Below, piece by piece: positions 3,259 to 58,351 of a stretch of DNA of 64,000 nucleotides (its first letter is position 1; every line of letters starts with the position of its first letter). The DNA comes from Aquificota bacterium (GTDB taxonomy: Bacteria; Thermosulfidibacterota; Thermosulfidibacteria; Thermosulfidibacterales; B14-G1): the NCBI GenBank assembly GCA_015486015.1, contig WFSL01000027.1, forward strand, positions 1 to 64,000, given 5' to 3'. The position numbers and the translations under genes are program-made. Below the pieces are notes generated by a model. The model had not been told where the DNA came from. It saw only the letters and a list, made by a program, of their open reading frames with translations, and made no database searches.

Positions 3259-5058
3259 GTGAGCAATGGGAAGATCCCTGTAGAGGACTTTGAAGAGGTT
3301 GATCTCCGTAGATACATCCAGGTATTAGCTCGGCGATGGAAGATGATCCTCGGAATCACCTGTGCGGCAGCCCTTGCTGCTTTTCTAATCAGCTTGGCAC
3401 TTCCCCCGGTTTACGAGGCAAAGGCCCTATTGGCAATTGTAAGGGCCAAGTCTGAGATAACCTTTGAACCCAAATTCAAGACCCTCGGAGAGGAAGATCT
3501 GGCAGTTCTCGGTGCGCGGTTGTGGGGTAAATGGTATGAAGCACGTCGCAAGGCCTTGGCCGAGATGGTTCGAAACCCTGCCATAGCAAAGGAGGTAGTG
3601 AATAGGCTGAAGGGCGTATTTGGAAAAGAGGAGGTCGATCCTTCCTATCTGGTGAAAAGGGTGAAAGGGGAGGCTGGGATGGGAGGGGGAGACGTAATTG
3701 CCGTGTGCGTTAGGTGGGATGATCCGCGAGAAGCGGCCTTGATAGCGAATACATGGGCGCAGCTATATGAGGAGCATGTCAATAGACTTTATGCCACTAC
3801 TTCAACTGCTTACTGTAAGTCCATAGAAGATGAGCTGAAGAAGGCCGAAAGGCGTTACTTAACTGCAGAGGAAGCACTTGATAGTTTCATTAGGCAAAAC
3901 AGGATAAGGGAGATAAAGCGCTTAATAGCTGAAAAACAAGAGGTTATCTCTGCTTTGCAGCGTGGGAGAAAGGTGGCTGTCAATGCGCTGGTTAACGAGA
4001 AGATTAAGGCCCATCAGCGGTTAATCTCTGCATACTTGTCAGCTCAAGCAAAGAATAGGCTCTTAGCTTTTGAAAAAGAACAGGAGGGACTTAGGAACTT
4101 AGCTTCTGCTTATTTAGATGCCCGTAATAATTCCCAAATAAAAGTTTTTAAAAAGCAACTCGAGAGCCAGTTGCTATCCCTTGGTTCATACTACAAAACC
4201 AGGCAAAAGTTGCAGCTCCTTTTAGAGGATGCAAGGGTGCTTCGCGATCAAATATCAAAAGGAGGTGAAGGAGCTGCCATCACTAATGGTCTTGCTGTCA
4301 TATTGCTGAAAGCTCAAGTTTTTGCATCCTCGGCAAATTTGCCTGGGGCACTTGATATCGAAATACGAGAATTACCAAAGCTCAGCGTTGCAGAGCTTGT
4401 TAGAGACCTTGATACGCTTACTGTAGTTATTAAAGAGCGCTTAAAAAATCTCGATAAGAAGATCAGTATGCTATCCCGCCAAATAGTTTCAGGAAACTCA
4501 CTTGAGTTCTTTTATGGTGGCCAAGAAAAATTCATAGCTGCTTTCCAAAGGATTTATCCGAAGCTCTTCCAGGTTGGAGGACTTGTTTCTTTAAGTAGCA
4601 AAGTTGCCCACGAGAATGAGTTGCAGCGTAGAACTGAATTTATGGCTGGAAGATTGATGAAGCTGGAAGGCTTAGAGAACATACCTAAGGAGGAATTTTC
4701 TGGACCTTTAAAAGAGGCTATAGAAAGATTAGAAAAGGAGATAAATGATTTAGAAGCGAGATTGGAACAAGAAAAGGCCCATAAAAAAGAATTGGTTGAG
4801 GCTCGTGACCTTGCCTACAATACCTATGTCACCCTAAAGCGGAAGGCGGCGGAAGTCCGTCTGAGCGTGCGAGTGCCGGGAACTGAAGTCCGCTTTGCCG
4901 TTCCGGCTGGCATTTTGCCTCACCCCGTTTCTCCGCGTAGGCTTTTTAACACGGTCATAGCTGGGGTACTGGGCCTGATGGTGGCTGTGCTTGTGGCCTT
5001 CTTGATCGAGTTTTTGCAAGCACCGCGGACTGAGGAAGAAAAGAAAGAAGAAACTTAG
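3259..5058 (+). CDS. Wzz-like polysaccharide chain-length / co-polymerase protein
   Basis: 599 residues from a GTG start preceded by GGGGAGG at 6 nt. The N-terminal region (EEVDLRRYIQVLARRWKMIL) leads into TM helix 1 at about 29-50 (ITCAAALAAFLISLALPPVY). A very long helical periplasmic region follows (about 150-530). Next comes the proline-rich PAGILPHPVSPRR stretch and TM helix 2 (about 565-588), ending in a short charged cytoplasmic tail. This is the polysaccharide co-polymerase topology without a fused tyrosine kinase. No glycosyltransferase, flippase or export gene is adjacent, so it is an orphan here. The middle of the gene is visibly more AT-rich than its neighbours, suggesting transfer. 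Confidence 0.85.
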   Translation: MSNGKIPVEDFEEVDLRRYIQVLARRWKMILGITCAAALAAFLISLALPPVYEAKALLAIVRAKSEITFEPKFKTLGEEDLAVLGARLWGKWYEARRKALAEMVRNPAIAKEVVNRLKGVFGKEEVDPSYLVKRVKGEAGMGGGDVIAVCVRWDDPREAALIANTWAQLYEEHVNRLYATTSTAYCKSIEDELKKAERRYLTAEEALDSFIRQNRIREIKRLIAEKQEVISALQRGRKVAVNALVNEKIKAHQRLISAYLSAQAKNRLLAFEKEQEGLRNLASAYLDARNNSQIKVFKKQLESQLLSLGSYYKTRQKLQLLLEDARVLRDQISKGGEGAAITNGLAVILLKAQVFASSANLPGALDIEIRELPKLSVAELVRDLDTLTVVIKERLKNLDKKISMLSRQIVSGNSLEFFYGGQEKFIAAFQRIYPKLFQVGGLVSLSSKVAHENELQRRTEFMAGRLMKLEGLENIPKEEFSGPLKEAIERLEKEINDLEARLEQEKAHKKELVEARDLAYNTYVTLKRKAAEVRLSVRVPGTEVRFAVPAGILPHPVSPRRLFNTVIAGVLGLMVAVLVAFLIEFLQAPRTEEEKKEET

Positions 5059-5364
5059 GTTTTGGTGAAGCTGAGGGGTCAGTGCCTGAGTTTGGTGGAT
5101 TTGACCTCTTTTAAAGTGAGGCCTCAGCTTTGCGGCGATTGCGACTGGCGGATTTTGAGGCGTTTCACTGGATATAGCGAGTATTTGCAGGCTTCACCCA
5201 TCAAAGGGCCTTTAATTGAGGCCTGTCTTAGCGATTCCTGGTTGGTGAAAAGATGGGGGCCTCAAGGGGGCTGTTTGGATTGGGTCTTTTGAGATCAAAA
5301 TTGGAGGAAGTCTTGTATCTTTTAAGCTTCACATTTTGTCTTTGGTTTCTTATACTAAATTGCC
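5059..5364. other. Intergenic stretch with no convincing gene
   Basis: About 300 bp between the Wzz-like gene and the oxidoreductase. A 76-codon open frame (5062-5292) resembles no protein I know and has no ribosome binding site. The sequence AGGGGTCAGTGCCTGAGTTT near 5073 weakly resembles the RAYT ends, and several TGAGGCCT-like words recur. It may be decayed mobile or coding DNA. Confidence 0.4.
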
Positions 5365-6543
5365 ATGTCTTTCTGGGATGTGATCGTAGTGGGTGCAGGG
5401 CCTGTGGGGGCCTATCTCTCCCGGTGTCTGACGGAAAGGGGATATAGGGTCCTTCTTTTGGACAAGAAGGGGAAAACGGGGCGCCGGATCTGTGCCGGTG
5501 TGATAGGGGCTGAAGCCTTTCAGCGTTTCCCCCTGCCCATGGAGACCGTTCTTTCTTCCGTGAGGTCTATCACCATGGTATCTCCCTCGGGCAAGAGACT
5601 GAGGCACACCTCCAGGGCCCCAATGGCCCATGTGGTGGACAGGGTGGCCTTTGACAGGACCATCCTCAAGGAGGCTGTGGGCAGGGGAGTGGAGTTTTAC
5701 AACCTCTCCAAGGTGGTTGGGGTGGAGAGGGACCCGTCGGGCATTAAGGTGGTGTGCAGAAATGGAAGGGATAATGAAGGAGTTCAGCATTTCAAGGGGG
5801 CAATGGCCGTCTTTGCTACGGGCTATAACCCTGGGCTCTTGGATGCCTTGGGACTTCCGGGCTATCCTGGGGCTGTGGTGGGGATCCAATCTGAGGCTTT
5901 GATGGAAGGGGTAGAGGAGATAGAGGTCTACCTGGGCCAGAGGGTTGCCCCGGGTGGATTTGCCTGGTTGGTGCCTATGGGAGATGGGAGGGTGAGGATG
6001 GGCCTTGTGGCGCAGAGGGATGCTAAGGATTGGCTCTTCAGGTTCATCTCCTCTCCAGTGGTCTCTTCCCGTCTTGTGGATGAGCCAGGTCCCATCAGGG
6101 CTGCATGGATACCAATGGGGCCTATATCCAGAACCTTTGGGGACAGGTTCTTGGTGGTGGGTGAGGCTGCAGGACAGGTGAAGACCACCACATACGGCGG
6201 GATTTACTATGGGTTGTTGTGTGCCGAAAAGGCCCTGAACACCATAGATAAGGCCTTCGAAAAGGGGGATTGGGGGGAGGGGCTCCTCTCCTTTTACCAT
6301 AGGGCCTGGTGGAGGCTCCTGGGAGATGAGATGGAGGCGGGTGCCCATTTGAGGGACATGGTGGTGGCCATGGAAGACACGGATCTGGACGATCTCTTTG
6401 TCCTTTTGGGTAGTGATGGTATTTTGCCCAGGCTTCGGGCTACGGTGAGGTTCGATTGGCACAGGGAGAGCATTCGGTTACTCATTGGTCGGGTGCTAAA
6501 ATACGCCTTTGAGACTCAGGGGCGTGTGGCGCTTAGAGAATGA
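5365..6543 (+). CDS. FAD-dependent oxidoreductase, geranylgeranyl reductase family
   Basis: 392 residues. The N-terminal dinucleotide fold (VIVVGAGPVGAYLSRCLTERG) is followed by LLLDKKGKTGRRICAGVIG, where the family binds FAD. Further on are FATGYNPGL, and DRFLVVGEAAGQVKTTTYGGIYYGL, the second FAD-binding motif of the geranylgeranyl reductase / flavin monooxygenase-like family. Members reduce isoprenoid double bonds or act as electron-transfer flavoproteins; the substrate cannot be read from sequence. There is no clear strong ribosome binding site at the ATG (TACTAAATTGCC precedes it). The next gene is 95 bp downstream in the same direction. Confidence 0.8.
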   Translation: MSFWDVIVVGAGPVGAYLSRCLTERGYRVLLLDKKGKTGRRICAGVIGAEAFQRFPLPMETVLSSVRSITMVSPSGKRLRHTSRAPMAHVVDRVAFDRTILKEAVGRGVEFYNLSKVVGVERDPSGIKVVCRNGRDNEGVQHFKGAMAVFATGYNPGLLDALGLPGYPGAVVGIQSEALMEGVEEIEVYLGQRVAPGGFAWLVPMGDGRVRMGLVAQRDAKDWLFRFISSPVVSSRLVDEPGPIRAAWIPMGPISRTFGDRFLVVGEAAGQVKTTTYGGIYYGLLCAEKALNTIDKAFEKGDWGEGLLSFYHRAWWRLLGDEMEAGAHLRDMVVAMEDTDLDDLFVLLGSDGILPRLRATVRFDWHRESIRLLIGRVLKYAFETQGRVALRE

Positions 6544-6638
6544 GCAGGGCATAGGTAGGGGATCCGGAGGTCTGAGCGGCCGCAAGGTGGACCTATTCTC
6601 CGTTTTCTGATAATCCCTCTCCTTCAGGGGGTGGGCGG

Positions 6639-52876: not shown

Positions 52877-53818
52877 TCAGCTTAGGTCCCAGTGGAATGT
52901 CCTTTCGAGATACCGCTCTGCTGCATGGGCTGCTGTGGCCCCATCCCCCACTGCAGTGGAGACCTGGCGGAGGATCTTGCGGCGCACATCTCCTGCGGCA
53001 AAGATGCCTGGCACGCTGGTCTCCATGTTCTCTCCTGTGATCACAAATCCCTCTGCGTCCAAGTCTACCACGCCTTTGAGGAACGCACTATTTGGTCTCC
53101 ATCCTACAAATAGGAAGAGGCCTAATACCTTCAGTACTTGCTTTTCCCCTGACTCCAGGTTCCTGACCCTTATCCCTTCTAAAAGGCCTTCACCAATAAG
53201 CTCATCCACGGCGGAAGACCAAAGCACCTCTACCTTATCGCTTTGAAGTAGCCTCTCTTGCAAGATCCTGGCTGCCCTTAGCTTGTTCCTCCGGTGGATG
53301 AGGTACACCTTCTTTGCGAACTTGGTGAGATAAAGGGCTTCTTGAACGGCGGTGTCTCCACCGCCCACAACAGCTACATTTTGTCCTTTGTAAAATGGAG
53401 CATCGCAGGTGGCGCAGAATGAGATACCCCTACCAATGAACTCATCCTCGCGGGGCAGCCCCAGCCTCTTGGGTGATGCACCAGAGGCCACCACCACTGT
53501 CTTTGCCTCCAGCCAGTCGCTGTCCACATATACCACCTTAAATGCCCTGTCTTCTTCAAGGGCCCGGACCTCACCCTGCCTAATGGGCACATTTAGCTTG
53601 TCTACTTGGGCTTTGATCCTGCTCACCAATTCCATGCCCGTTATCCCTTCTGGGAAACCTGGGTAGTTCTCCACCAGATCAGTCATGGCGATCTGTCCCC
53701 CTGGGGCCACTCTCTCCACCAAGAGCACATTGAGCCTGGAGCGTGCAGCGTATAGTGCAGCGGTGAGGCCTGCAGGTCCTCCCCCTACGATAATGAGATC
53801 GTATGCCTCTTTCTTCAT
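52877..53818 (-). CDS. trxB: Thioredoxin reductase
   Basis: 313 residues. FAD site [20 protein letters not shown], redox-active CATCD (the following residue is Ala where most have Gly), NADPH-binding [17 protein letters not shown], and the C-terminal FAD contact [23 protein letters not shown]. It reduces thioredoxin with NADPH. 60 bp downstream of the GNAT gene, in the same direction. Confidence 0.93.
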
Positions 53819-53878: not shown

Positions 53879-55027
53879 TCAAGGCATCTCATTCCGAGGA
53901 GAAGCTTTCAAGGTCATCTCATAGATCCGGTACCTCTTATACAGTCTTCCACCCAGCTTTTCTATGAAGGAGTTGATGGCATGGTTGTCCTCAAGGGTCC
54001 ATGATAATTCCCCTCCGTGATATCCCCTTTTTCTCCCTGCCTCTAAGGAGTGGAGAGATAGTAATAGCTCCAGCCCTTTGTTTCTAAAGGCCTTTCTTAC
54101 GCCCAGGGCGACGAGCCTCCCCTGGGTTATGTGCCTGGAGTAGAGGTAGAACTTGAATATCCCCAGTGGGAAGAGGCTGCCCTTCATCCTCTTGAAGACC
54201 TGGTTGTAGTCAGGGAGGCTGAGGGAGACCGCCACAGGTTCTCCGTCTGCCTTCTCTGCGATAAGGGCAAGATCCGGTACCACTAAGGGCTTGAGCCTCT
54301 TTGCCATGTGCACCACCTCTTCTCTCTTCAGTGGTACGAAACCCCAGTTAGCCTCCCATGCATCATTATACACGGTGATGAAGCGTTCGAGCTCCTCATT
54401 GAATCTGCGCACATTGGCCTTGCGTATCTTGAAGCCGTAGCGCTTCTGGAGCTTCTCTGCAAGGTTGAGGACCTGAGAAGGCACATCCCTCCAGATTTCA
54501 AACCAGTATGCATAGAGATCCTTGGCCTTGGTGAAGCCGTAGCGCTCGAGGAAGTCCTTATAGTATGGTGGATTGTAAGGCATCATGATCACAGGGTCCT
54601 CGTTAAACCCCTCGATAAGCAGGCCGCATTCGTGGTTTGTAGAGAAGGAGAGGGGACCCCGCATTACCTCTATCCCCCTTTCCCGAAGCCACTGCTCCCC
54701 AGCATTTAAAAGCTCCTTTGCCACTGCGTAATCCTTTACCGTTTCAAAGAAGCCAAAGGCCCCCATCTTTTCTCCATGGAACTCCTCATATGCATGGTCT
54801 ATGGTGATAGCGATTCTGCCCTGAGCACGGCCCTTGGCATCCCTAAGGAGGAAATACACGCCATCTGCATGTGAGAAAAAAGGGTTCTTCTCTGGCCTTA
54901 AAAACTGGAGATGGTCTACCACAATGGGGGCCACCCAGTGGTTGTCGTAGCGGTAGACCCTCCAAGGCATCCGGACGAATTCAATCAAGGCCCTCCGGTT
55001 AGCGGGATCAACCACCTCTACAGCCAT
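53879..55027 (-). CDS. YghO-like GNAT-fold protein (possible N-acyltransferase)
   Basis: 382 residues. The start is followed by MPWRVYRYDNHWVAPIV and PEKNPFFSHADGVYFLLRDAKGRA. The central part has MRGPLSFSTNHECGLLIEGF, and the C-terminal half the GNAT-like GVRKAFRNKGLELLLSLHSL and GGELSWTLEDNHAINSFIEKLG. The fold belongs to the N-acyltransferase superfamily; the substrate is unknown. Related proteins near serine palmitoyltransferase genes act as bacterial ceramide synthases, which fits the adjacent alpha-oxoamine synthase, but this is an inference. 66 bp after that gene. Confidence 0.75.
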   Translation of the reverse strand: MAVEVVDPANRRALIEFVRMPWRVYRYDNHWVAPIVVDHLQFLRPEKNPFFSHADGVYFLLRDAKGRAQGRIAITIDHAYEEFHGEKMGAFGFFETVKDYAVAKELLNAGEQWLRERGIEVMRGPLSFSTNHECGLLIEGFNEDPVIMMPYNPPYYKDFLERYGFTKAKDLYAYWFEIWRDVPSQVLNLAEKLQKRYGFKIRKANVRRFNEELERFITVYNDAWEANWGFVPLKREEVVHMAKRLKPLVVPDLALIAEKADGEPVAVSLSLPDYNQVFKRMKGSLFPLGIFKFYLYSRHITQGRLVALGVRKAFRNKGLELLLSLHSLEAGRKRGYHGGELSWTLEDNHAINSFIEKLGGRLYKRYRIYEMTLKASPRNEMP

Positions 55028-55093
55028 AACTCCTCCCTTTCCCTTTGATCTTCCTCAAGAAAACCATGCTCTGGGCAGTGATGCAAGGGCTGT

Positions 55094-56278
55094 TTAGATG
55101 AGGCCCAATTCTTTGCCTGCTTGGGCGAAAGCATCCAGGGCCAGTGAGAGGTCCTCCTCTGTATGGGTGGCCATTAAGGTGACCCGAAGGCGGCTTGTGC
55201 CAGGAGGTACGGTAGGAGGCCTTATGCCCGCCACAAACACCCCATGCTTCAAAAGCATCTCGCTCATCTGCATGGTCTTATCCTCAGGGCCAATGATCAC
55301 AGGTACTACAGCAGTGCCTTGGTTGGTGACATCAAAACCCATAGAGCTCAGTCCATCTACAAAGATTTTCACGTTGTGATGGAGCCTTTGGCGCCTCTCA
55401 GGCTCCTCTTGCATCAACCTTATGGCCTCTAATGCCACAGCCATATCTGCTGGGGGAAGGGCTGTGGTAAATATGAAGCTTCTGGCCTTGTTGATAAGAT
55501 ACTCCCTGAGGATTTTGCTCCCAGCTATGTAGGCACCAAAACCCCCCAGGGCCTTGCCCAAGGTGCCCATTTGTATTGGCACCCTTTTGGTGAGGCCAAA
55601 GTACTCTACGGTGCCTGCACCTCTCTCACCCAAGACGCCGGTAGCATGGGCCTCGTCCACCATGATCCAGGCCCCATACTTCTCGGCCAGCTCCACCATC
55701 TCCGGCAAAGGTGCAATATCACCATCCATACTAAAGACCCCATCCACCAAAATCATCCGCCGCCGTCCCTTCTCATTCCTTAAGAGGTTCTCCAGGGCGT
55801 TCATATCCTTATGAGGGAAAACCACTACCTTGGCACGTGAGAGGCGGCATCCATCTATGATGGATGCATGGTTGAGCTCGTCTGAGAAGGCCACGTCCCC
55901 AGGACCCAAAAGGCTGGAGATGATGCCCACATTGGCCATGTAACCGCAGTTGAATATCAGGGCAGTCTCAGTACCCTTAAATTTGGCTATGGCCTCCTCC
56001 AGTTTCTTGTGGAGGGTCATGGTACCTGATACCAAACGGGAAGCTGAAGCGCTGGTACCGTAACAATCTATAGCCTTCTTGGCCGCCTCTGTGAGTCTGG
56101 GGTGGTTCGCCAGGCCCAGATAGTTGTTGGAGCACATGAGCACCACCTCCCGACCGTCCAGGGTCACACGAGGGGATTGGGCCGTCTCTATATTCCGCAA
56201 AAAGCGGTAACGACCCGCCGATTTTATGGCTGTTAGCTCTTGGGAGAGGGAGGTGTCCAGCTCTTTCCTCAATCCCAT
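55094..56278 (-). CDS. Alpha-oxoamine synthase (BioF / KBL / serine palmitoyltransferase family)
   Basis: 394 residues. It starts LSQELTAIKSAGRYRFLRNI. PLP lysine K242 lies in MGTLGKALGGFGAYIAGSK, PLP-contacting D208 and H211 in IMVDEAHATGVLGERGAG, and H136 in SDELNHASIIDGCRLS. The C-terminal AGIRPPTVPPGTSRLRVTLM is BioF-like. Members condense an acyl-thioester with an amino acid: pimeloyl-ACP with alanine (BioF), acetyl-CoA with glycine (KBL), palmitoyl-CoA with serine (SPT). No biotin gene is present, and neighbours are an acid-ligase homologue (10-bp overlap) and a GNAT protein, which leaves the substrate open. Confidence 0.87.
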   Translation of the reverse strand: MGLRKELDTSLSQELTAIKSAGRYRFLRNIETAQSPRVTLDGREVVLMCSNNYLGLANHPRLTEAAKKAIDCYGTSASASRLVSGTMTLHKKLEEAIAKFKGTETALIFNCGYMANVGIISSLLGPGDVAFSDELNHASIIDGCRLSRAKVVVFPHKDMNALENLLRNEKGRRRMILVDGVFSMDGDIAPLPEMVELAEKYGAWIMVDEAHATGVLGERGAGTVEYFGLTKRVPIQMGTLGKALGGFGAYIAGSKILREYLINKARSFIFTTALPPADMAVALEAIRLMQEEPERRQRLHHNVKIFVDGLSSMGFDVTNQGTAVVPVIIGPEDKTMQMSEMLLKHGVFVAGIRPPTVPPGTSRLRVTLMATHTEEDLSLALDAFAQAGKELGLI

Positions 56279-57471
56279 TTCCGCTTATCCTCCAGAAGCT
56301 TTCCCTCCCCCAGTTGGCCAATCTCCAAGAGCTTCACAGCATCTACTTTCAGACGGAAGGTCTCTCCAGCCCGCTTCTGGAGGGCACCCAGATCTTCTGG
56401 GGATACACCTTCTCCCTCTACCAGGAGGGTGAGGGTATCCCGTACCCCCTCTCGATCTACCACCACCCGAAGGGCCTTCGCCCAAGGGAACTCTCTACCT
56501 AAGGCCTTTACCTGATGGCCATGAATGAAGAGGCCCCTTACCTTGACAGCGTTTCCCACCCGGCCCATGAAGCCTGCCAGTCTGGGAGAAGTCCACCGGC
56601 CACATGGGCAAGGATCCTCCAGGAACTTGGAGAGATCCCCTGTACCGAATCGGATGAGGGGATAGACAGGACTTAATAGGGTGACTACCACTTCACCCAC
56701 CTTACCCAGGGGCAAGGGTTCTCCCGTGACAGGATCGCAGATCTGGACCACTATGTCTTGGGCCAGATGGAGGCCATCCTTTTGGGAGCATTCAAAGCCA
56801 ATGGTGCCTACATCGGCAGTACCATAACACTGGTAAGTGTCTATGCCCCATTCCTCCTCAAACATGTTTCGGAGATGGTTCGGCAAGGGCTCGGCAGAGA
56901 CTAAGGCCTTTTTGATGGGAAATTTCCCGGGACCATGCCCTTTCTCCTGGGCCACCTCCAATAAGGCTGCCAGGAAGCTGGGGGTGCCTACAAAGCCTGT
57001 AATTCCCAGCCTAGTGATGATATTCACCTGGAGCTCCCTGTTCCCTACCCCCGTAGGTACTACCACGGCCCCCAATACCCTCAAGCCCTCATCATACATG
57101 AAGCCGGCAGGTGTAAGGTGGTAGGAAAAGGTGTTTACCACCAGATCTCCCGGGCCGAAGCCCGCTGCCTCTAAGGCCTGGGCCCTCCTCCAATAATCTG
57201 GCACCGCGCCCTGGGGATCGAAGATGGGTCCTGGTGACACAAAAATCCGAGCCAGGAAGGAAACATCTGCAGCCAAAAGTCCACCAAAAGGGGGGGTCTG
57301 AGTTTGGAGATCCCCCAGTTGGTCCTTCTTCAATACAGGGATCCGGGCTAACCCTTCCTCTCCATGGATATCCTCGAGGGCCAAGCCTGCCTCCTCCATG
57401 CGCCTTCTTAAGACAGGGCATCTCTTCCATGCCAGGGCCAATGTCTCCTTTATTCTGGTGTCTATGTCCAT
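56269..57471 (-). CDS. Phenylacetate-CoA ligase-like adenylate-forming enzyme with altered P-loop
   Basis: 400 residues. Adenylate-forming core motifs A5 (CYGTADVGTIGFE), A7 (LIRFGTGDLSKF) and A8-like (AVKVRGLFIHGHQVKAL) are present, and the end GEGKLLEDKRKWD resembles the A10 lysine region of PaaK. The P-loop, SSGTTGKP in PaaK, reads VSPGPIFDPQG (about 78-88) here. CPCG is a cysteine pair also found in PaaK relatives. It probably activates an aryl or aliphatic acid, but the altered loop makes that uncertain. It heads the ligase, oxoamine synthase, GNAT, trxB, S4, pdxA operon. Confidence 0.75.
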   Translation of the reverse strand: MDIDTRIKETLALAWKRCPVLRRRMEEAGLALEDIHGEEGLARIPVLKKDQLGDLQTQTPPFGGLLAADVSFLARIFVSPGPIFDPQGAVPDYWRRAQALEAAGFGPGDLVVNTFSYHLTPAGFMYDEGLRVLGAVVVPTGVGNRELQVNIITRLGITGFVGTPSFLAALLEVAQEKGHGPGKFPIKKALVSAEPLPNHLRNMFEEEWGIDTYQCYGTADVGTIGFECSQKDGLHLAQDIVVQICDPVTGEPLPLGKVGEVVVTLLSPVYPLIRFGTGDLSKFLEDPCPCGRWTSPRLAGFMGRVGNAVKVRGLFIHGHQVKALGREFPWAKALRVVVDREGVRDTLTLLVEGEGVSPEDLGALQKRAGETFRLKVDAVKLLEIGQLGEGKLLEDKRKWD

Positions 57472-57832: not shown

Positions 57833-58351
57833 ATGGAGCATATGGCACATGTAGCAATGAATACCCTTATTTGGGAAGCAGCAATAATGTTGTGGATAAT
57901 TGGATTGGTTGAGCTGGGTGTGGATAAGCGGCATGACCCAAAGGATTTTGGGTGGGTGTTGCTTACAGGTGGTTTGATGGAAACGGTGGCGATGTGCTTC
58001 CTCATTGGTGCTGGGGATATGTTTGGGGCCACCGCCGCCGCCGCATTCATACTCCTCCTTTGGGTGTTGGGTGTAGGTTTAGTGACTGGCACAAACCGTG
58101 CTGTCCAGAATCATGCGATATGGTTTACTGGCTTCTATTTCTTGGGGGCCACCATATTCACTGCTTCTCACCATCTTGTGTTTTTGAGCTTTATGCTTGG
58201 CATTTTGGTACCCCTCACGTGGCTTCTCTCACTGGCAAACTATACAGGGATACATGGTTTGGCTAAAATCGGAGGGTTCTTATCGGCAGTGGATGGGATC
58301 CTGTTCTTTATATGGGCCTTATCAACAGCTATTGGTCATCATCTGCCTTAG
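57833..58351 (+). CDS. GPR1/FUN34/YaaH-type acetate transporter-like membrane protein
   Basis: 172 residues with five or six hydrophobic TM segments. GGLMETVAMCFLIGAGDMFGATA matches the FGATAF-type motif of the family (SatP/YaaH); GFYFLGATIFTAS and AKIGGFLSAVDGILFFI match later helices. The N-terminal NPAPLG motif is absent, so it is a divergent member; the AmiS/UreI family is the other possibility. The ribosome binding site is AGAGGAGGTAAAA. It is followed by a strong bidirectional terminator. Confidence 0.6.
   Translation: MEHMAHVAMNTLIWEAAIMLWIIGLVELGVDKRHDPKDFGWVLLTGGLMETVAMCFLIGAGDMFGATAAAAFILLLWVLGVGLVTGTNRAVQNHAIWFTGFYFLGATIFTASHHLVFLSFMLGILVPLTWLLSLANYTGIHGLAKIGGFLSAVDGILFFIWALSTAIGHHLP

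Follow-up and report, generated by a model that had tools for sequence, protein, structure and literature searches.

The window analysed here is a whole stretch of 64,000 nucleotides from a genome labelled as an Aquificota bacterium, and it carries a PaaK-like AMP-ligase homologue (LIG), an alpha-oxoamine synthase (AOS1) and a GNAT-type N-acyltransferase (GNAT) side by side. Most probably this arrangement joins a biotin-type half, LIG-AOS1, to a ceramide-synthase homologue that was parted by rearrangement from its serine palmitoyltransferase (SPT) partner, which now lies elsewhere in the genome. Gene content suggests that sphingolipid synthesis probably takes place in this organism, but by a route other than the window trio.

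An initial annotation had pointed to these three genes as a possible amino-ketone lipid route. Its physical description of them is accurate, as LIG, AOS1 and GNAT are adjacent, co-directional and all intact (Table 1). The LIG and AOS1 reading frames overlap by 10 nt, GNAT starts 66 nt downstream of AOS1, and Pfam and NCBIfam confirmed the families. The draft assembly of this genome (G000) comprises 1.62 Mb in 43 contigs and is 97% complete. It was compared with relatives that include members of the same genus (G001), the same family (G002, G003) and the same order (G005, G006, G008). Relatives carry the name Aquificota bacterium (S016_37, B14_G1) or Thermodesulfobacteriota bacterium (Dive96_bin4.269). 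The family assignments, gene orders and junction reported below are read directly from sequence. The window also encodes, on the plus strand at 57833-58351, a 172-aa hydrophobic membrane protein that is present in the same-genus relative (L121) and has no match in Pfam or NCBIfam.

Table 1. Positions of the genes and the intergenic segment discussed in the text (window coordinates unless a contig is given).
Feature	Position	Strand	Size and basis
LIG, PaaK-like AMP-ligase homologue	57471..56269	minus	400 aa; Pfam PF00501 (AMP-binding), 42 bits
AOS1, BioF-like alpha-oxoamine synthase (8-amino-7-oxononanoate synthase)	56278..55094	minus	394 aa; Pfam Aminotran_1_2; TIGR00858 bioF
AOS1/GNAT intergenic, likely rearrangement breakpoint	55028..55093	minus	66 bp; blastn synteny
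GNAT, bCerS/YghO-family N-acyltransferase	55027..53879	minus	382 aa; Pfam Acetyltransf_1; E. coli YghO homology
trxB-like thioredoxin reductase, downstream of GNAT	52877..53818	minus	named by reading sequence, not family search
AOS2, SPT-type oxoamine synthase	G000:C37:10242-11378		SPT clade; S. multivorum SPT identity

By homology, GNAT is a member of the bacterial ceramide N-acyltransferase family (YghO/CC_1154). E. coli K-12 YghO matches it with 34% identity across 368 aa (E=5e-70), nearly the full length, and BL21 YghO also aligns over its length. For the BL21 sphingolipid cluster, yghO is listed as aca, the gene of an acyl-CoA N-acyltransferase corresponding to CC_1154 of Caulobacter (PMC9386255); as we read that cluster from its sequence, the order is yghO, fatty acyl-AMP ligase, epimerase, ACP and spt. 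Homologues of GNAT were detected in 24 of the 60 genomes searched and often adjoin an oxoamine synthase. Outside the order several GNAT loci also include a CerR-like SDR, and loci in other lineages hold an oxoamine synthase and/or a CerR-like SDR. NCBIfam has no specific family for GNAT, a PDB sequence search with it gave zero matches, and an AlphaFold model built without an alignment reached a pLDDT of only 36 and was not used. Its predicted activity, from homology and from SPT linkage in the relatives, is N-acylation of a long-chain base.

The genome holds two oxoamine synthases, AOS1 in the window and AOS2 on contig C37. AOS2 shows 53.6% identity (466 bits) to the SPT of Sphingobacterium multivorum and has MGTFSKSLASLG, identical to that enzyme. 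In a tree of 35 rows it falls into a clade supported at 100/100 with the S. multivorum, S. wittichii and BL21 SPTs. All GNAT-adjacent oxoamine synthases belong to this clade except the G054 row, which is divergent and has a very long branch. The best NCBIfam model for AOS2 is SPT-CFB, at 591 bits and under the strict cut-off of 640. AOS2 is an SPT-like enzyme and the predicted natural partner of GNAT.

This pairing is seen directly in the relatives, where GNAT lies immediately 3' of AOS2 in G001, G002, G003, G005, G006 and G008, at the end of the cluster ilvD-ilvB-ilvN-ilvC-psd-pssA-ychF-AOS2-GNAT (the G001 and G003 contigs carry just part of it). AOS2 of G000 retains the ilv-psd-pssA-ychF cluster, but its next gene is another ORF, not GNAT. 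The LIG-AOS1 pair also occurs in G001, G002 and G003, at a locus separate from AOS2-GNAT. By blastn synteny the LIG/AOS1 side of the window, including the gene at 57833-58351 common to G001, matches G001:C44, G002:C28 and G003:C45, and its GNAT side corresponds to the AOS2-GNAT-trxB loci in the same three genomes. The order GNAT, trxB-like gene, 93-aa ORF and 336-aa ORF is kept in G002 and G003, and in G001 via overlapping contig ends. AOS1-GNAT adjacency was found in G000 only and in none of the relatives examined. This distribution, together with the position of GNAT behind AOS2 in six relatives, indicates that the window trio is likely a lineage-specific junction, seen in a single assembly, with its breakpoint in the 66-bp AOS1/GNAT intergenic segment. 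A LIG-AOS1-GNAT operon as a conserved unit is ruled out by the gene orders in the relatives. Across the order, an SPT-type oxoamine synthase stands beside phosphatidylserine synthase and decarboxylase genes, as the series ilvD-ilvB-ilvN-ilvC-psd-pssA-ychF-SPT is found at 2689-11378 of contig C37 and at loci L040-L044 and L056.

We consider it unlikely that AOS1 and GNAT were misjoined during assembly and that the true genome retains AOS2-GNAT. Such an error would fit a single draft assembly in 43 contigs whose same-genus relative retains AOS2-GNAT-trxB. It is opposed by the sequence around the junction, where no repeat longer than 13 bp is common with the AOS2 contig stretch or with the other G000 stretches tested and where an ordinary ribosome-binding site precedes GNAT in the intergenic segment; moreover, the contig of AOS2 continues past it with other genes.

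The oxoamine synthase within the window is of a different type. AOS1 reached 502 bits with the TIGR00858 bioF model, above the cut-off of 426, and stayed under all three SPT models (399, 342 and 297 bits against cut-offs of 640, 500 and 670). It shares 52.5% identity with the BioF encoded in an Alicyclobacillus bioB-A-F-D-W operon and bears IRPPTVPPGTSRLR, matching the IRPPTVPxGTxRLR loop of BioF references. In the tree AOS1 falls outside the SPT clade, and a topology test rejected AOS1 and AOS2 as a single clade (p=5e-6). A serine palmitoyltransferase role for AOS1 was discarded on the model scores and the tree position, and with it the proposal that the window supplies the SPT, which sits on another contig. 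The tree allows AOS1+BioF and AOS1+KBL equally (p-AU 0.33 each), and the NCBIfam KBL model gave 455 bits, just below its cut-off of 460. That AOS1 serves threonine breakdown as a glycine C-acetyltransferase (KBL) instead of being a BioF is nevertheless quite improbable given its residues, since at the Val79 position of KBL, a Val in KBLs, AOS1 has Ser as do the BioF references, and its loop is again that of BioF where KBLs have G-F-x-x-P-V-V-P. The genome also encodes bioA (533 bits), bioD (160 bits) and bioB (344 bits), each above cut-off. From score, residues and gene complement, with a tree that leaves BioF and KBL open, AOS1 is BioF-like and not the predicted SPT of the genome. The remark in the initial annotation that the synthase also looks BioF-like is thus upheld by model, signature and the accompanying biotin genes. 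The same annotation named BioF grouping together with a biotin set as evidence against its lipid reading, and proposed placing the enzyme in a BioF/KBL/SPT tree; by score, residues and gene complement this evidence holds for AOS1, while the tree alone excludes AOS1 from the SPT clade and fits either BioF or KBL.

The biotin side has a clear gap, as bioF, bioA, bioD and bioB occur here with no known pimelate-forming enzyme. BioW (TIGR01204) was detected in none of the 10 genomes searched, and BioC had no match above cut-off in the genome. The same pattern of biotin genes with neither BioW nor a BioC match above cut-off is seen through the order (G000-G008). Of the annotated references used here, the BioF nearest to AOS1 is that of the Alicyclobacillus operon, which includes bioW; G000 differs in lacking BioW, in having dispersed biotin genes and in having a PaaK-like homologue in front of bioF.

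This gap, the overlap of LIG with AOS1 and the retention of the pair in four genomes of the family favor a reading in which LIG is a novel BioW analogue that activates pimelate for AOS1, yet we regard that role as distinctly doubtful. PaaK and LIG are homologous over most of their length and have in common CxCGR and RxGTGD-type motifs. However, in an alignment that included PaaK paralogues from G000 and its relatives, LIG reads SPGPIFDPQG where PaaK-type enzymes have the SSGTTGKP loop, has YGTAD for YG(x)(S/T)E, and has no conserved A10 lysine. The replacements extend across the subfamily, with SPGPI(F/Y/N)DP at the SSGTTGKP site, mostly YGTAD and an A10 lysine that is not conserved (motif counts and conservation over 36 rows). 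The features by which ANL adenylating enzymes are recognized (P-loop SSGTTGxP, A5 Glu and A10 Lys) are therefore not those of the LIG subfamily. Gene neighborhoods also argue against the role. Among GTDB genomes 570 LIG relatives were confirmed, and LIG lies 3' of branched-chain amino-acid (Liv-type) ABC transporter genes in half of the scored loci (32 of 64). None of the fetched loci outside the family of G000 has an adjoining oxoamine synthase or a convincing biotin-gene neighbor. Within the order, AOS1 occurs with no LIG beside it in G006-G008, and LIG stands apart from any oxoamine synthase in G005. Since the LIG loci fetched from elsewhere have no adjoining oxoamine synthase, the LIG-AOS1 link is local and, among the loci examined, limited to the family of G000. 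Membership of LIG in a general biotin cluster was rejected for want of linkage in the fetched loci. Loci of the subfamily (L171-L250) are often preceded by a Liv-type ABC transporter, together with a FadD-like ligase. The more specific idea that this subfamily, with its usual adenylation motifs gone, gives BioF activated pimelate by an undescribed chemistry and so fills the BioW/BioC gap here would be more speculative still. Of the pimelate-to-biotin route that the initial annotation had set against its lipid reading, the BioF-like synthase and the biotin set stand, but activation by LIG is supported neither by motifs nor by the wider loci. Nor is LIG of the AasR type found in the BL21 sphingolipid cluster.

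Candidates for the ketone reductase and the acyl carrier protein, which the initial annotation had listed as missing from the window, lie elsewhere in the genome. A profile built from six GNAT-linked SDRs and BL21 CerR picked out a CerR-like SDR on contig C9 at 265 bits; the second-best SDR of the genome reached 122. It has counterparts at 232-276 bits in G001-G005, G007 and G008; G006 had no SDR at this level in the same search. The C9 protein shares 28% identity with BL21 CerR and 34% with a GNAT-linked SDR from a distant genome, and its gene is surrounded by a hemL-like aminotransferase, sua5, purE, metK, a CDP-alcohol phosphatidyltransferase, gpsA and ahcY. It is likely a CerR-like candidate for the reductase, and the set of SPT, N-acyltransferase and reductase appears complete but dispersed. 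Two ACPs are present, one of them adjoining an AMP-ligase. On contig C24 (G000:C24:48000-59000, L298) consecutive ORFs at 4281-6595 encode this ACP, the AMP-ligase and a nitroreductase. A close counterpart of the ACP-AMP-ligase unit was sought in nine relatives and found in none, and the pair was rejected as an AasR/AcpR analogue on that ground and on an identity to AasR of only 24%.

Substrates, reaction order and sphingolipid production are inferred from this gene content. AOS1, as BioF, would use L-alanine and a pimeloyl thioester in a condensation on the way to biotin. AOS2, as SPT, would condense L-serine with a long-chain acyl thioester to give a 3-keto long-chain base, which GNAT would then N-acylate, and the CerR-type SDR on contig C9 would reduce the ketone. 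A chromosomal rearrangement would have cut between AOS2 and GNAT and put GNAT behind bioF, so that the new operon would be a matter of position and not a pathway. That the trio is itself a lipid route, in which an acid activated by LIG is turned into an amino ketone by AOS1 and then N-acylated by GNAT, is highly improbable. In its favor, the three genes adjoin and run in one direction, LIG overlaps AOS1, and AOS1 could be promiscuous like wild-type Thermus AOS, its closest solved relative, whose substrates include acetyl-, pimeloyl- and palmitoyl-CoA together with Gly, Ala and Ser (PMC11906848). Against it, the AOS1-GNAT pairing is peculiar to G000 among the genomes examined, relatives have GNAT with AOS2, AOS1 has BioF signature residues and LIG lacks the usual adenylation motifs. 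What survives of the proposed amino-ketone lipid route is the family of GNAT and the presence of SPT-like and CerR-like genes in the genome; the passage through AOS1 does not.

The reading of the window as a biotin-type pair joined to a displaced ceramide-synthase homologue leads to the prediction that sphingolipids occur in an uncultured lineage with relatives assigned the label Aquificota or Thermodesulfobacteriota. It also cautions that an oxoamine synthase adjoining a bCerS homologue is no proof of a ceramide operon, and the conserved SPT-bCerS neighborhood by the phosphatidylserine genes can guide the search for sphingolipids. Our literature search found no paper joining 'Aquificota' and 'sphingolipid', and Aquificota are not named in the main text of a study of Black Sea metagenomes (PMC11334938). 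The Spt/bCerS/CerR sets of that study, which span many phyla, resemble the present one, since uncultured bacteria there carry an SPT-clade oxoamine synthase along with homologues of bCerS and CerR. The E. coli BL21 cluster (yghO, aasR, cerR/epi, acpR, spt) and Caulobacter CC_1154/1162-1165 likewise have the same families of N-acyltransferase, SPT-type oxoamine synthase and SDR reductase. In contrast to BL21 and Caulobacter, G000 has its genes on three contigs with no AcpR-SPT pair, its LIG is not AasR, and its AOS2 is nearest to the Sphingobacterium-type SPT, not the Rhodobacteria type. Compared with the Black Sea study, the present analysis adds the conserved ilv-psd-pssA-ychF-SPT-bCerS neighborhood and its later split.
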